Position numbers and translations under genes: made by a program. 43,056 nt of DNA from an uncultured Caulobacterales bacterium (GTDB lineage Bacteria > Pseudomonadota > Alphaproteobacteria > Caulobacterales > Maricaulaceae), in assembly GCA_937924355.1 (NCBI GenBank), contig CALDSY010000173.1, positions 1 through 43,056 on the forward strand, given 5' to 3'. Of this stretch, positions 2,943 through 9,075 are shown piece after piece. Each line of letters opens with the position of its first letter. Position 1 is the first letter of the stretch. The notes below the pieces were generated by a model. It worked only from the letters and a program-made list of their open reading frames with translations. It did no database searches and was not told where the DNA came from.

Positions 2943-3851
2943 ATGACTTACTGCGTGGCGGCACTCTATCATTTTACCCGTCTGGGGGATTACGAAGCTC
3001 TAAAAGAGCCGCTCCTTGGTATGTGCCAAATGCTCGAAATCAAGGGCACATTACTCCTAGCCTATGAGGGCATTAACGGGACCATTGCCGGAACCGATGC
3101 GGCCATTGCAGAATTATTAGAGTTTCTAAAGGCCGATCCCCGCCTGACCGCGCTGGAGCACAAAGAAAGCCGGGCCAGCGACATGCCGTTTTACCGCATG
3201 AAAGTGCGTCTTAAAAAAGAAATCGTTACCATGGGCGTGGACGGGGTCGACCCCAATGACATTGTGGGGACTTATGTGGACCCGGCCCATTGGAACGAGC
3301 TTATATCTGACCCGGACGTTATTCTGATTGATACGCGCAATGATTATGAAGTTGAAATCGGGAGTTTTGAGGGCGCTGTGAATCCAAACACAGAAACTTT
3401 TCGAGAATTCCCGCAATGGGTTGCCGAGCATGAAGCCGAGCTGCGATCCAAGAAAAAAGTGGCCATGTTCTGTACTGGCGGGATCAGGTGTGAAAAGGCC
3501 AGTTCTTTTATGAAGCAACAAGGCTTTGAGGACGTCTATCACCTCAAGGGCGGAATCCTAAAATATCTGGAACATGTCAAAGAAGAAAACTCGCTCTGGA
3601 ACGGCGATTGTTTCGTTTTTGATCAACGAGTCGCTGTTGGACATGGATTAGCCGAAAGTGAATACGACCAATGTTATGCCTGCCGCTATCCTATTACAGA
3701 AGCAGAAAAGAAACATCCACAATATGTCCGGGGTGTTTCCTGTCCGCGTTGCTATGATTCAATGCAAGACAGTCAACGCGCAGGATTTGCCGAGCGGCAA
3801 AAGCAAATTGACCTGGCCCGAGAACGCGGCGAGACGCATTTAGGGCGCTAA
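2943..3851 (+). CDS. trhO: tRNA uridine(34) hydroxylase TrhO (YceA rhodanese family)
   Basis: A 302-residue protein of normal length for TrhO/YceA, the oxygen-dependent enzyme making 5-hydroxyuridine at tRNA position 34. The N-terminal acylphosphatase-like domain holds [14 protein letters not shown] (about 35-47). The rhodanese domain (about 115-215) contains [12 protein letters not shown] and the active loop CTGGIRCEK with the nucleophile Cys177. The C-terminal part has the paired cysteines CYACRYPI and CPRCYDSM typical of the long form. It ends 3 bp from the convergent methyltransferase gene. Assignment is by family motifs; confidence is high. Confidence 0.93.
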
Positions 3852-3854
3852 GAA

Positions 3855-4475
3855 TTAGGCGACAGTGCATTCCATAATTATGTGCGCATATGGAATGTTG
3901 ATTAAGTCGGTTCGGACGTAGAACTTTACATTCTCATCGCCAAAAGCCTGTTTCGCCAGCTTCGTGTATCCATCGGCAAAACGGACGTTTTGGCCTCGGT
4001 CCTTATTCAGAAAAAAACGGGCGGCAGAAGATTGGTTTTCCGTAAAGACCCCGTCAAACGTAATTACTCGGCCTTTGCTGACTAGCTGGCGTTTTGCAGT
4101 TTCAAAGAGGGCGATACACTCCGCATCTTCGAGGTGATGCAAAAGTCCCAAGGCCATTACGAGGTCAAACTTTTCGTCCCGCGGCGGCAGGGCATCGGCT
4201 GAGCCCACAAAAAATTCGCCCTTGTCGCCATATTTGTTCTTGGCTTCGCTGATATAAGCCTCGGAAAAATCAGCGCCCAGATATTTAACATCTTCAAGAT
4301 GATTTAGAATGTCGGCCGGACCACATCCGATGTCGAATATGCGCATGCCGTCAAAGGGGCGAATATAATCATCGCGCAAGATATTGCGTTTGCGCTTAGC
4401 GCCCAAAACAGACTGCCATGTCGAATAGACGATGGGGGCTTTGAGTATGGAACGTATACCGGAATCTATTTGCAT
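3855..4475 (-). CDS. Class I SAM-dependent methyltransferase (last gene of glycan cassette)
   Basis: A 206-residue protein with a Rossmann methyltransferase core: motif I IFDIGCGPADIL (about 49-60), acidic loop LGADFSEAYI (motif II), SADALPP and FDLVMALGLLHHLED (motif IV/post), as in Methyltransf_11/25 proteins. The acceptor cannot be read from sequence. It is the fifth gene of a tightly packed minus-strand set, 18 bp after the sulfotransferase gene, so a sugar or lipid-linked glycan is a reasonable guess. The N-terminal IVYSTWQSVLG stretch resembles small methyltransferases that act on large glycolipids, but that is weak evidence. There is no signal peptide, so it is cytoplasmic. Confidence 0.8.
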   Translation of the reverse strand: MQIDSGIRSILKAPIVYSTWQSVLGAKRKRNILRDDYIRPFDGMRIFDIGCGPADILNHLEDVKYLGADFSEAYISEAKNKYGDKGEFFVGSADALPPRDEKFDLVMALGLLHHLEDAECIALFETAKRQLVSKGRVITFDGVFTENQSSAARFFLNKDRGQNVRFADGYTKLAKQAFGDENVKFYVRTDLINIPYAHIIMECTVA

Positions 4476-4493
4476 TTTTCTAGCTCAACTTGC

Positions 4494-5363
4494 TCAATGA
4501 TACCCGAATGACGGGTCCAAATGTTCGGAAATCTGGGTATTAATATAATCTATATCGTCTTGATCGAAAAACTCTTTATACTCTCCGATCATCCCTTTTC
4601 GCGACTGGAATGCGTTACTATTGGACTTATCAGAGGTAACCATCCAGGGACTGTCCGCATGACTTTGTTCTTTCTTCTTCATGCGTTCCAAAGTGCAATT
4701 TTCGATAGCCTGAAGAATATGGCTACCGGAAATTTTCAGACCCCAGAAGTCAAACATTTTTATGAGTTCAGCTTCTGTATCCTTCCGCATGTCCTCATAT
4801 GACATCCGAAAGACCTGCTCTGGATAGGTTTCGAAATAGCGCTGCCATTTGTTCATAAAATGGATGATTTTTAAAATTCCAACATTTGGGTTTCTGACCA
4901 AATAGTTTTTGTCAAATTTTTCGTAACCGGTTCGGTGTCGAATATGATGATATTGACTAACCAGAACATCACGAGGATCCCGAACTAGAAAAATGATTTT
5001 GGCGTGATCATATTTTTGCCAGTCATCTTTTTGAACACTTTTATAGTCTCTGACCCATTCTTCCCAAGAGGATCCAGCATGGGTTGATAATATCAATGGA
5101 ATATCGGCATCGGCGGACGCCTCGGTGATGTCCGAAAATTCCTCCGTCTGACCCGTTTCCAGCCGCACGGCCTCAATGATCAGTTTTTGTAACCAGGTCC
5201 GGCCAGACTTGGGATAGCTGACTATTATATTTGGAAACTTTCGCAGCGATCCGTATTTCCGCGCGCGGTCCATATAAAACCTGACAAAAGACGGCTTTTT
5301 AGCAAACAAGGCCGCCTTTTGCGAAACATTCGCCTTGTAAAAATCCAACTTGGTTCCCTTCAT
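4494..5363 (-). CDS. PAPS-dependent sulfotransferase (Sulfotransfer_1 family)
   Basis: A cytosolic-type sulfotransferase of 289 residues that would move a sulfuryl group from PAPS to a hydroxyl. The 5'-phosphosulfate loop is SYPKSGRTW (residues 49-57), the 3'-phosphate motif is VRDPRDVLVSQ (127-137), a candidate catalytic His is in LSTHAGSS (His95), and the C-terminal RKGMIGEYKEFF matches the family's RKGxxGDW motif. I chose the ATG at 5363 because it overlaps the upstream stop as ATGA; an upstream in-frame ATG at 5381 would overlap further. Its place between two methyltransferases and downstream of a glycosyltransferase and epimerase suggests a glycan or glycolipid acceptor. This family is uncommon in bacteria and often linked to surface or signalling molecules. 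Confidence 0.88.
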   Translation of the reverse strand: MKGTKLDFYKANVSQKAALFAKKPSFVRFYMDRARKYGSLRKFPNIIVSYPKSGRTWLQKLIIEAVRLETGQTEEFSDITEASADADIPLILSTHAGSSWEEWVRDYKSVQKDDWQKYDHAKIIFLVRDPRDVLVSQYHHIRHRTGYEKFDKNYLVRNPNVGILKIIHFMNKWQRYFETYPEQVFRMSYEDMRKDTEAELIKMFDFWGLKISGSHILQAIENCTLERMKKKEQSHADSPWMVTSDKSNSNAFQSRKGMIGEYKEFFDQDDIDYINTQISEHLDPSFGYH

Positions 5364-6136
5364 GACGCGGCCTTTTGCCAACTCGTCAAAATGGACACGC
5401 CAAATGGAAACGTTTTACCCCTTAGAACACGCCCGCTTTCGGACGCAAAAAGTCTGTAGATCATTTTTGAGGCAAGTCCGGGTTTTGACATGACGGTCAA
5501 ATCGGAACTAACCTCGTCCTCTGCATGAGTTTTATCGGTCACGCTAAAGAGGTTGTTGATTTTACGAAAAAACCATACCGGAGGAAACAGCCAGAAATTA
5601 AAATATCCCGAATATAAAATGTTAGAGGAGTCGTTAAACAAATCTAGAATTTCGGTATTCCGGTACCGTTTAATATGATGATTAATCACATCATGATTTG
5701 ACCAGAGTGACATAAAGGCCGGAACAGTGATGACGACATGAGCTTGATTTTTGCAAACGCGTTTGAGCTCAGACACGGCTAGCTGATCTTCTTTCACATG
5801 CTCAACAACGTCAAAAGCGCAAACAAGATCGAAACTATTATCGTCAAACGGAAGCTCCAAAATTGAACCGAGCTGCAGACCGATATCTTCTACATTTTCT
5901 TTGACAAAATCGTAGCAGCTCTCTTCATATTCAATGGAGGTAATTTCGCCAAATTCCTTGAGCAAGACGGATGTATAGCCTGTTGCAACCCCCACATTCA
6001 GAATTCTCAAAGGCGCGTCGCTATCACGGTCAGCCAAAAGCTGGCGAATATAGTCCATGATGATCTTGTTGCGGGCGAGAAAGAACCAATGGTTCCGCTC
6101 GGCATGGTAATAATCTTTGTAGTATTCTTTTTTCAC
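5360..6136 (-). CDS. Class I SAM-dependent methyltransferase of glycan cassette
   Basis: A 258-residue product from a GTG at 6136 that overlaps the stop of the upstream epimerase gene as GTGA, which indicates translational coupling. Motif I is ILNVGVATGYTSVLL, motif II TSIEYEESCYD, and FDLVCAFDVVEHVKED is the motif IV region. Further on, SLWSNHDVINHHIKRY resembles the HxxxHHxRRY stretch common in methyltransferases that sit beside polyprenyl-phosphate sugar transferases. A hydrophobic stretch (YFNFWLFPPVWFF) near residue 190 could touch the membrane. The acceptor is unknown. A longer reading frame extends upstream to 6229, inside the epimerase gene; I reject that start because of the GTGA junction. 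Confidence 0.82.
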   Translation of the reverse strand: MKKEYYKDYYHAERNHWFFLARNKIIMDYIRQLLADRDSDAPLRILNVGVATGYTSVLLKEFGEITSIEYEESCYDFVKENVEDIGLQLGSILELPFDDNSFDLVCAFDVVEHVKEDQLAVSELKRVCKNQAHVVITVPAFMSLWSNHDVINHHIKRYRNTEILDLFNDSSNILYSGYFNFWLFPPVWFFRKINNLFSVTDKTHAEDEVSSDLTVMSKPGLASKMIYRLFASESGRVLRGKTFPFGVSILTSWQKAAS

Positions 6137-7038
6137 AGCGTCGCCCCGGATAGTAGATTGCGATAAAGCAAACGGAGATTGGTTGAAAGATCTGAAGGCA
6201 AAAACCCTTTCGCCCTTATATTTTGGCAAAACGACATGTTCGCCGCGTTTGATTTCGTCAGAGTATAGCTCAGATAAATCTTTCTGCTGCTTACAGTCTC
6301 GAGCATGTTCTTTATCTCTGCAATTGAATAGGGTTTGCCATCAATGACAAAAACTGTTCCCGGCAGAGGGTCTTCCAGCATGTCGGCAATATATCGGCCA
6401 ATATCCGCATCTAGAACATAATCTCTTAGCGTCATCTCAGTGCCGTAAATTGACATAAACTCTTGGCGTATTGACTTTAAAACCAAGGTCGAAATAAGCC
6501 CCATGCGAGACCTTAGGTTTGAAATCGAATAGACGGAACTTAGTCGCAGTAATGCGAATTGATCAAAATCCTTGTGGGATTTCACATGGTTTTCCTGAGC
6601 AAGCTTTAGGTGACCATAAGGGCGTTGTGGCAAAGGCTCGGCCGTTTTTGTAATGCCGGTCTGCCCCTCAAAAAGGCCCCCCGCCGAGCTGATCAACACA
6701 AACCGAAGTTTGGCCGACGCGGCATGTTTTTTGATGGTTTTGGACATATGATCAACGAAAGATTTGAAAAACTCCAAATCCCGGTTCGCCTCATCAGTAG
6801 AAGCACTAAAACCCGTTTTCCCCGCACTCCAGATAATATCAATTTGATCAACATCATCGGGGATATGCTGAGAGACAAAATCCGACATCAACACTTTGCA
6901 ATGCTCCAGAGATGACCAATCAAGCTTGTCGCCAGCAATGGTTTGAAACCGGTTTTCAAGCGCTTCGAATGCCGCCCAACCGACGACACCGAGCCCTATG
7001 ATCAGAACATAATGGTTATGACGACGGAGCAATTTCAT
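6133..7038 (-). CDS. NAD(P)-dependent sugar epimerase/dehydratase family protein
   Basis: A 301-residue extended-SDR protein. The dinucleotide loop is GLGVVG (residues 15-20), followed by a segment holding IIWSAGKTGF, a Ser in VLISSAGGLF, and the catalytic YxxxK pair as YGHLK. The C-terminal substrate domain includes LRDYVLDADIGRYIADML, typical of nucleotide-sugar epimerases and reductases. The glycine motif is atypical (GxGxxG rather than GGxGFIG). The start lies 23 bp inside the glycosyltransferase gene, so translation is probably coupled. A role in making or finishing the sugar transferred by the cassette is inferred from context only. Confidence 0.78.
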   Translation of the reverse strand: MKLLRRHNHYVLIIGLGVVGWAAFEALENRFQTIAGDKLDWSSLEHCKVLMSDFVSQHIPDDVDQIDIIWSAGKTGFSASTDEANRDLEFFKSFVDHMSKTIKKHAASAKLRFVLISSAGGLFEGQTGITKTAEPLPQRPYGHLKLAQENHVKSHKDFDQFALLRLSSVYSISNLRSRMGLISTLVLKSIRQEFMSIYGTEMTLRDYVLDADIGRYIADMLEDPLPGTVFVIDGKPYSIAEIKNMLETVSSRKIYLSYTLTKSNAANMSFCQNIRAKGFLPSDLSTNLRLLYRNLLSGATL

Positions 7039-8035
7039 AGTTCAACTTGCTCAAGGCTTCTTTCAATTCATCATCTTTGGATCGATCGACGACGAAAAAT
7101 GTAGGCTTCCCATTTGTACTCAAGACCAAATCCCCAATACTCTCGAGAAGTATGCTCAGCATCGCCAGCGTAATACCGCCGAATAATAGCACCAAAAGAA
7201 TAATCGTGGTCCAGCCGCGCGGGGCGGCGAATTCCAAATCCATTAACGCCGTTATAAACATATATCCGGCGATGAACATGCTGGTCAAAAAGGCGATAAT
7301 TCCCAAAGGAATAGCCAGCCTTAAAAACTTAATCTTGGAGCTCATCACCATGCGTTTGGCGTGTTTGACCAGGCCAAAAAATGAATAACCGCTCTGGCCG
7401 TTATTCTGGTTACGATCATCATAGAGAATGACATCCTGTGTCTGGATGCGTTTTGTAAACCAACTCAAAGCAATATCCAGGTAAGTGTCGTGACGACAAA
7501 TGGAGGCGGCCCCCCTGGCAATTTCACCGCGAACGGCACGAAAGCTATTAAAGTCCCGCGTATGCGGATTGTTTAACATCCGACTCATCATGGATTTGAA
7601 CAGCCGGGCCATGCCGTCGCGCATGAATGAATTATGCGTGTTTTTAGGAGACTTCGCATAACAAATATCAGCGCTACCTTCGACCGCCGACGCAAGTAAA
7701 GACGGAATATATTTGGGGTGATGCTGCAAATCTTCATCGAGCGTGACAACCCAGTCACCCGATGTATACAGCATGCCGGCGATCGTCGCTGGATGCTGAC
7801 CAAAATTGCTCGACAGGGTGATCACCTGCACCCAATCATGCTTTTTAGCGAGTGACCTTATCACGGCTTCTGAATCGTCTATTGCCTCGTCAATCACGAA
7901 GACGCTTTCTCCGAGCTTAAGCGGGCTGTTTTCTTTTTCCAAAGTCGCCCGCAGCTTGCCCAGTTCTGCAACCAGATCTGGCAGATATTTCGCCCCATTA
8001 TAAACAGGCGTGACTGTCGAAATTGAAATAGCCAT
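7016..8035 (-). CDS. GT2 glycosyltransferase, polyprenyl-phosphate sugar type
   Basis: A 339-residue family 2 glycosyltransferase with two C-terminal membrane helices (about 240-262 and 273-298), the layout of DPM1/GtrB-like enzymes that load a sugar on polyprenyl phosphate. The GT-A domain shows ISTVTPVYNGA at the N-terminus, SSNFGQHPATIAGM (about 75-88, a hallmark of this group) and the metal site TLDEDLQHHP (98-107). The first member of the five-gene minus-strand set and probably the step that commits a sugar to a lipid carrier. No ribosome binding site is obvious before the ATG at 8035. Which sugar is moved cannot be told. Confidence 0.87.
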   Translation of the reverse strand: MAISISTVTPVYNGAKYLPDLVAELGKLRATLEKENSPLKLGESVFVIDEAIDDSEAVIRSLAKKHDWVQVITLSSNFGQHPATIAGMLYTSGDWVVTLDEDLQHHPKYIPSLLASAVEGSADICYAKSPKNTHNSFMRDGMARLFKSMMSRMLNNPHTRDFNSFRAVRGEIARGAASICRHDTYLDIALSWFTKRIQTQDVILYDDRNQNNGQSGYSFFGLVKHAKRMVMSSKIKFLRLAIPLGIIAFLTSMFIAGYMFITALMDLEFAAPRGWTTIILLVLLFGGITLAMLSILLESIGDLVLSTNGKPTFFVVDRSKDDELKEALSKLNYEIAPSS

Positions 8036-8102
8036 TCTACGGCGGCTAGCTATTGATTAGGGTCTTAAGAGTCAACGCTTAACCACATTAAAGGTAGATC
8101 CG

Positions 8103-8173
8103 GCATTCACACTCCCTAGACGCGCGCAAACCCATTGGCAGGTGAATATAAGCTGAATTTAGCATTCACGCTC
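8103..8173. promoter_or_regulatory. ATTCAC repeats in divergent intergenic region
   Basis: The 185-bp region between the divergent glycosyltransferase and YbaY-like genes holds a 12-bp direct repeat with one mismatch, GCATTCACACTC at 8103-8114 and GCATTCACGCTC at 8162-8173, spaced 59 bp start to start. An inverted copy of the core (GTGAAT) lies between them near 8141. This could be an operator shared by the two promoters. No regulator is implied. Confidence 0.3.
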
Positions 8174-8220
8174 GGTTGGACTCCTATGTTATACCATGAG
8201 TCTATATTGACGGAGGTCAT

Positions 8221-9075
8221 ATGCGTAAATTCTTGTTGATTTCAGTTGCGTCTTTACTGATGGCGGTGCCGGCTCAGGCCCAATTTGGGGCCATTGAAGA
8301 CCTAATTGAAGATATTATCGTCGACACTCGGCGGCATCCTGGCCCACATCAAAGCGCTATCGAAATGATACCGGTGGACGTAGATATGAATAGCTTGAGG
8401 TCATTCATTGGCCACAGCCTGGTTCTCAATGCCTATAAACCGGTGGAACCCGGTATGACGCAGCCAGAACTCATCGGACAAACGCGGATTTTGCTGACGG
8501 GCATGCCCAATCAACTGGGACTGGCTATTTTTGTACCCGAACCTGTTACGCGCGACCTTGATTTTGCCGTCGTTAACGGAGCTATTCTGGATCCGTCCGG
8601 CAAAGAGGTTTTTATTTCCCGACAGGAAGAGTTTTTCAAAGGCCGCGGATCCGTCAATTTGGAGATGGTTGCTGTTGGTAATCAAGGCACGACGCAAAGC
8701 CCCCAAACGGCGGGAAAAATGGCCGAGCTTGAAGGCAAAGTCTACCTCCCCAAAGATGCCCCGCAACTTATGCGCGGCGCGTCTATGACGGTTGAATTGG
8801 TTGAGGTTGATAACACCCGTCTTGCGGGTGGTTCCGGATACACGGAACGGGTGATCACACAGACATTTGTTGATCTGGACAAGGAAAAATCCCCGTTCAA
8901 ATTCAAGATGGAATATCCCCAAGCTGAGACCAATACATCCAAACAGATTGTTATTCGAACGGAGCTCAAGGATTGGGCTGGGCGGGTGATGTATGAAGAT
9001 TTCCAAGGGCAGCCATTCATGGGCGCCGATAACAAATACAAAATCGAGCTAGAGCCTGCGGGGTATCAGCCTTGA
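8221..9075 (+). CDS. Exported protein with YbaY/YscW-like domain
   Basis: A 284-residue secreted protein. The signal peptide MRKFLLISVASLLMAVPAQAQ should be cut after AQA (about residue 20). An excellent ribosome binding site (GGAGG) precedes the ATG at 8221. The C-terminal portion from about residue 165 (ELEGKVYLPKDAP, MTVELVEVD, PFKFKMEYP, YKIELEP) matches the beta-sandwich of the YbaY/YscW pilotin-like family. The middle domain (about 45-160) is not recognised. It is translationally coupled to the next lipoprotein gene through a TTGA overlap. Envelope location is clear; the role is unknown. Confidence 0.72.
   Translation: MRKFLLISVASLLMAVPAQAQFGAIEDLIEDIIVDTRRHPGPHQSAIEMIPVDVDMNSLRSFIGHSLVLNAYKPVEPGMTQPELIGQTRILLTGMPNQLGLAIFVPEPVTRDLDFAVVNGAILDPSGKEVFISRQEEFFKGRGSVNLEMVAVGNQGTTQSPQTAGKMAELEGKVYLPKDAPQLMRGASMTVELVEVDNTRLAGGSGYTERVITQTFVDLDKEKSPFKFKMEYPQAETNTSKQIVIRTELKDWAGRVMYEDFQGQPFMGADNKYKIELEPAGYQP

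Follow-up and report, generated by a model that had tools for sequence, protein, structure and literature searches.

What would a bacterium make with a glycosyltransferase, a sugar epimerase, two methyltransferases and a sulfotransferase that are encoded end to end on one strand, with no flippase gene beside them? The question is raised by positions 3855 to 8035 of a 43,056-nucleotide stretch (hereafter, the whole of it, the window) of contig CALDSY010000173.1 from an uncultured Caulobacterales bacterium. A first-pass annotation had described these five genes as a compact tailoring set that places one decorated sugar on a carrier. Judging from the families of the encoded proteins and from the neighbourhoods of their relatives, we think that the cassette probably supplies the cytoplasmic half of a three-component (GtrB/GtrA/GT-C) glycosylation system, to which enzymes that decorate the sugar have been added.

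Layout and predicted proteins of the cassette

The cassette comprises five intact minus-strand open reading frames (ORFs) that run from 8035 to 3855 in the order glycosyltransferase (GT2), epimerase (Epi), methyltransferase 1 (MT1), sulfotransferase (ST) and methyltransferase 2 (MT2):

7016..8035, minus strand: GT2, glycosyltransferase of the GtrB/ArnC type (339 aa; PF00535, E 3e-19)
6133..7038, minus strand: Epi, epimerase-like protein of the extended short-chain dehydrogenase/reductase (SDR) type (301 aa; Epimerase PF01370, E 4e-8)
5360..6136, minus strand: MT1, class I S-adenosylmethionine (SAM) methyltransferase (258 aa; Methyltransf_11 PF08241, E 1e-15)
4494..5363, minus strand: ST, sulfotransferase of the 3'-phosphoadenosine-5'-phosphosulfate (PAPS) type with cytosolic SULT architecture (289 aa; Sulfotransfer_1 PF00685, E 2e-26)
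3855..4475, minus strand: MT2, class I SAM methyltransferase (206 aa; Methyltransf_25 PF13649, E 5e-15)

The GT2 and Epi frames overlap by 23 bp, the Epi/MT1 and MT1/ST junctions are GTGA and ATGA overlaps, respectively (MT1 starts at GTG 6136, ST at ATG 5363), ST is separated from MT2 by 18 bp, and MT2 ends 3 bp from a convergent trhO gene. We set the MT1 start at GTG 6136 and not at the mechanical TTG 6229 because the former reproduces the MKKEYYKDY N-terminus of two congener copies. Since the 23-bp GT2/Epi and 4-bp Epi/MT1 overlaps recur in a congener (G006; 91% complete) whose proteins are 53-71% identical to those of the window, these junctions are not the product of chance. Coordinates, overlaps and Pfam matches all agree with the families and junctions that the first-pass annotation had given, and its view that the five genes are made together holds to the extent that the tight junctions are confirmed and co-expression is likely. 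A scan for promoters and terminators gave no clear excess over shuffles.

GT2 aligns over nearly its full length with structures of ArnC (PDB 9hwj, 84.5 bits) and GtrB (5ekp, 77 bits), which are its best full-length matches in PDB. A transmembrane (TM) scan predicts two segments at its C-terminus (residues 246-264 and 278-296), and its DED motif (D100-E-D102) is invariant in an alignment of eight homologues. By these features GT2 is predicted to be of the polyprenyl-phosphate type, as first proposed. Its NCBIfam scores fall far below the cut-offs, both for PgfS (117 bits, cut-off 500) and for ArnC (97 bits, cut-off 529); given that score, and since none of the flanking genes scanned resembled an arn partner, we rejected a role in the ArnC/lipid A pathway. 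At residues ~48-55 (gene at 7016-8035 of the window) the protein reads DEAIDDS in place of the usual DDGSxD nucleotide-binding motif, and GT2 homologues linked to Epi carry DDAIDDS, DDHSIDNS or DDAAIDQS at the same position. The altered motif may mark a different sugar-nucleotide donor.

The epimerase-like protein contains GxGxxG (15-20), SSAGGLFEG (117-125) and Y141xxxK145 motifs, nearly all of which are conserved across eight GT2-linked loci, and it gives weak PDB matches to the 4-epimerase-like proteins 6zl6 and 6wjb; a structure model built from a two-sequence alignment had a mean pLDDT of 59, which is too weak to judge activity. Among the five proteins, ST has the strongest family assignment. 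It aligns with cytosolic SULTs in PDB (E 4e-12), PAPS-binding motifs and RKGxxG included, and carries YPKSGRTW (50-57), RDPRDVLVSQ (128-137), RKGxxG (255-260; here RKGMIG) and a candidate catalytic residue, H95, which we take from its position, by analogy with SULTs, to be the catalytic histidine. The PAPS-binding motifs and RKGxxG are also kept in the G006 copy. By sequence, MT1 and MT2 are unremarkable members of the class I methyltransferases. The remark that sulfotransferases are uncommon in bacteria does not apply here: the window's genome has four further PF00685 loci, on contigs C199, C15, C56 and C205 (L002-L005), with open frames of 521, 674, 682 and 299 residues, and a Caulobacter control genome has one PF00685 locus too.

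Neighbourhoods of relatives and the missing partners

In 8 loci, which range from Alphaproteobacteria to Deltaproteobacteria, GT2 and Epi lie side by side, and GtrA is encoded with GT2 in four homologous loci (L015 and L047-L049). On Paracoccus plasmids the pair is again translationally coupled and belongs to a compact unit of four genes, GT2, Epi, a protein of ~530 aa with nine predicted TM segments, and GtrA. A deltaproteobacterial metagenome-assembled genome (L015) has the order GtrA-GT2-Epi and, after it, a convergent gene of the YfhO family, whose members have a GT-C role. Three-component glycosylation of lipoteichoic acid has YfhO proteins among its partners (PMC5836110, PMC7389260). Relatives of MT1, at 24-33% identity, occur in the orders GT2-MT1-GtrA/multi-TM fusion in Novosphingobium, GtrA-MT1 in Sphingomonas, GT2-MT1 in Sphingobium and MT1-GT39-GtrA-GT2 in Cupriavidus. 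The product of the Novosphingobium plasmid gene that adjoins GT2-MT1 (L088, 7744-9591) has an N-terminal GtrA domain and a long multi-TM region, and is a possible flippase/GT-C fusion. MT2 relatives adjoin MT1-like genes in glycan loci of Rhizobium and Neorhizobium, with a 45% identical relative in such a locus on a Rhizobium plasmid. Therefore, the neighbourhoods of GT2, Epi and MT1 relatives each point to a three-component system, to which ST would be an unusual addition. Given that GtrA and large membrane proteins are encoded beside close GT2-Epi pairs and MT1 relatives, the cassette is better read as part of a system of this kind than as free-standing; the compact tailoring set first proposed does lack polymerase and flippase genes, and a ligase gene too, but it probably does not stand alone.

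In the mechanism that we favour, GT2 would use a nucleotide sugar to load a single sugar onto undecaprenyl phosphate at the inner face of the membrane, and the coupled SDR would alter the configuration of the sugar before or after this transfer. Also in the cytoplasm, the sugar would be O-methylated by MT1 and MT2 and sulfated by ST with PAPS as the donor. Its onward passage would depend on a flippase encoded elsewhere, for which the GtrA of contig C113 is a possible candidate, and on a GT-C transferase, which together would deliver the completed sugar to a glycan or protein of the cell surface. We infer from protein families the mechanism, the substrate, the order of steps, the acceptor and the partners, as well as the stage of decoration, i.e., on the nucleotide-linked or the lipid-linked sugar.

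Several observations weigh against this assignment. The roles of all five cassette proteins are predicted from sequence. There is no GtrA or GT-C gene in or adjoining the cassette, nor does the cassette hold a polymerase, flippase or ligase gene. A single GtrA gene was detected in the window's genome (G000; 82% complete), and it lies unlinked on contig C113 (L051, 103-1708), downstream of a multi-TM ORF that breaks into two frames at ~528-618 through a frameshift or an assembly error. No GtrA match was found in G006. A search of the window's genome assembly for APS (adenosine-5'-phosphosulfate) kinase and PF01507 genes gave no match. Finally, ST relatives at ten loci in other genera, 30% identical elsewhere in the class, have no GT2 or epimerase neighbour. 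The first-pass statement that no polymerase or flippase is present thus holds for the cassette itself but not for the genome, with its unlinked GtrA. The interrupted ORF on C113 has no Pfam match, and we rejected it as a homologue of the Paracoccus membrane protein, to which it gave no match.

The lack of flippase, GT-C and ligase genes in the cassette, and a search that found no GtrA in a congener with a related set, would suit a self-contained sulfated glycolipid pathway. In it, GT2 would attach a sugar to a membrane lipid, methyl and sulfate groups would be added by the tailoring enzymes to give a polar sulfoglycolipid, and neither flippase nor GT-C transferase would be needed. However, the nearest characterised full-length relatives of GT2, ArnC and GtrB, are polyprenyl-phosphate enzymes, and GtrA and multi-TM proteins accompany close homologues of the GT2-Epi pair; we regard this pathway as unlikely. 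A second alternative is that the cassette tailors sugars for an ordinary O-antigen, capsule or exopolysaccharide of Wzy or ABC type that is encoded elsewhere, with sulfate and methyl groups added to nucleotide- or lipid-linked repeat units. One gene of the O-antigen ligase/polymerase family (Wzy_C) does occur elsewhere in the window's genome, a Desulfolutivibrio GT2-Epi pair adjoins rfbFG-type genes, and there are marine bacteria with sulfated capsules and cysNDC and sulfotransferase genes (PMC11641403). The locus lacks Wzx, Wzy, Wzz and an initiating transferase, however. Furthermore, GT2 enzymes of the GtrB/ArnC type make single-sugar periplasmic donors, which repeat units do not need, and we hold this alternative to be slightly less likely still than the glycolipid pathway. 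Both the C113 GtrA and the Wzy_C gene are tied to the cassette only by their presence in the same genome.

The supply of PAPS, which the first-pass annotation had suggested be sought elsewhere in the genome, gave a divided result, since the genes not found in the window's incomplete genome are present in G006, ~2 kb apart on contig C147; this pair of APS kinase and PF01507 genes is, by family, consistent with cysD and cysNC. The partner genes that are unlinked or missing, the interrupted membrane ORF beside the only detected GtrA gene and the undetected PAPS genes could also mean that the cassette is a decayed fragment of a glycan island that has lost its flippase and transferase and no longer functions as a pathway. 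This seems very improbable given that its five ORFs are intact, its junctions are tight, its catalytic motifs are kept, its codon usage resembles that of neighbouring genes and is not unusual, and the related set is intact in a second genome (G006).

Genomic site and copies in the genus

The cassette lies between two plus-strand genes, which bound the site that it occupies (2943-9075):

2943..3851, plus strand: trhO/UPF0176 rhodanese gene, which bounds the replaced site on the left (gene order; kept in 9 of 10 genus genomes)
8221..9075, plus strand: YscW-domain gene, which bounds the replaced site on the right (PF09619; adjoins trhO and the glutathione S-transferase gene in six congeners)

In these six congeners (G001, G003, G004, G006, G007 and G008; loci L098-L103), the space between trhO and the YscW-domain gene is taken by a glutathione S-transferase gene, in some cases accompanied by one or two others, and the gene order downstream is conserved. 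In the window the glutathione S-transferase gene is absent and the cassette stands in its place. Therefore, the cassette is a replacement island that has substituted for the glutathione S-transferase gene in this lineage. Its GC content is 45.3%, compared with 49.6% for the window, and is the third lowest among 195 segments of the cassette's size. No mobile-element gene or phage link was seen at the site, and a phage origin was rejected since the epimerase and ST had no match in 50,697 phage records or in viral contigs. Upstream of trhO, on the minus strand, positions 1911-2318 encode a 135-aa protein of about the size of GtrA, with three or more TM segments and no Pfam match, of which a 34% identical copy occurs near trhO in G004.

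Among the 119 relatives searched, ST, GT2, Epi and MT1 occur together in one, the congener G006, at another locus, in another order and without MT2; this is also the only relative with a close ST homologue. The expectation that gene order would be conserved in relatives was thus not borne out, as a single genome has four of the five genes, reordered. The G006 set, in the order ST-GT2-Epi-MT1, sits between ttcA and lon, and its proteins are 59% (ST), 67% (GT2), 53% (Epi) and 71% (MT1) identical to those of the window, compared with 79% for the core gene trhO. In G007, Epi and MT1 adjoin lon at a contig end, and the MT1 copies in the two congeners are 71 and 70% identical to that of the window. 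The G006 set shows that cassette genes travel together. In G004 and G009 a GT2-Epi pair is only 46% and 30% identical to that of the window. Since trhO is ~82% identical in these genomes but the pair is no closer to the window's than are the Paracoccus or deltaproteobacterial copies, the G004 and G009 pairs are probably separate acquisitions. In both of these genomes, GT2-Epi is convergent with a set of a second GT2, a methyltransferase and GtrA (L028, 7243-10941; L027, 7783-11603), and the arrangement is flanked by a cell-wall hydrolase-like gene and gpsA-tsaD.

Profile searches of the order and the class scored the five best first-look candidates per genome, and the first look was lossy, such that the counts are lower bounds: the epimerase profile matched only the window's genome and G009 among 398 genomes of the order, and only the window's genome among 386 of the class. 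By these counts the pair is rare beyond the genus, and an operon conserved across the family, order or class was rejected.

A bolder reading, which we offer tentatively and with some doubt, is that the cassette represents a new branch of three-component systems, in which a single sugar would be epimerised, methylated and sulfated on an inner-face polyprenyl carrier, then flipped and transferred, and in which a cassette that shifts between chromosomal sites would switch surface chemistry without phage. If the mechanism that we favour is right, three-component systems can bring a sulfated, methylated sugar to the bacterial surface, and a GtrB-like GT2 with a coupled SDR and optional methyl- and sulfotransferases would serve as a rule for spotting such units in genomes that lack annotation. 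The swap at this site shows how surface chemistry can change within a genus by a small step in which no phage was seen.

Comparison with known systems

In literature that lay mostly outside subscription journals, we found no published system that joins a sulfotransferase to a GtrB-type enzyme and an epimerase, and no paper that places a sulfotransferase in a three-component system. Nor was a named pathway with the cassette's gene order found, in keeping with the first-pass annotation. A paper on Actinoplanes assigns the sulfotransferases there to a Wzx/Wzy cluster, apart from the GtrA cluster. The sulfated capsule loci of Vibrio KMM 8419 (PMC11641403) resemble the cassette in having a PAPS sulfotransferase within a surface-glycan set, but they are large clusters with cysNDC, an ABC transporter and several glycosyltransferases, whereas the cassette has five genes and none for export or PAPS synthesis. 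In sequence, GT2 is closest to the ArnC structures of the lipid A L-Ara4N branch, yet no ArnA, ArnB, ArnD, ArnT or formyltransferase is encoded beside it.

Two systems offer likenesses for the pairing of an epimerase with glycosylation. The Streptococcus mutans Pgf operon (pgfS-pgfM1-pgfE-pgfM2; PMC5856776) has, like the cassette, a GT2 enzyme and a sugar epimerase in one operon, and PgfS is the best NCBIfam match of the cassette GT2; unlike the cassette, it modifies adhesin proteins, has two membrane proteins and lacks methyl- and sulfotransferases. For an SDR epimerase that serves one three-component system alone, the closest precedent is ORF13 of the Citrobacter youngae O2 pentofuranose system, which, as here, has a glycine-rich nucleotide-binding motif and YxxxK; the likeness is one of role and motifs. 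According to the available part of that paper (PMC11127046), the lipid-linked pentofuranose is built from phosphoribosyl pyrophosphate with no GtrB-type GT2, sulfation or methylation of it is not reported there, and to the knowledge of its authors (2024) no further epimerases occurred in systems for side chains of O-polysaccharides.

With the classical three-component systems, GtrA/GtrB/Gtr of Shigella and CsbB-GtcA-YfhO of Gram-positives, the cassette shares a GtrB-type GT2 with a C-terminal TM pair. It differs from them in that the flippase and GT-C transferase would lie outside the cassette, and in the addition of an epimerase, two methyltransferases and a sulfotransferase.

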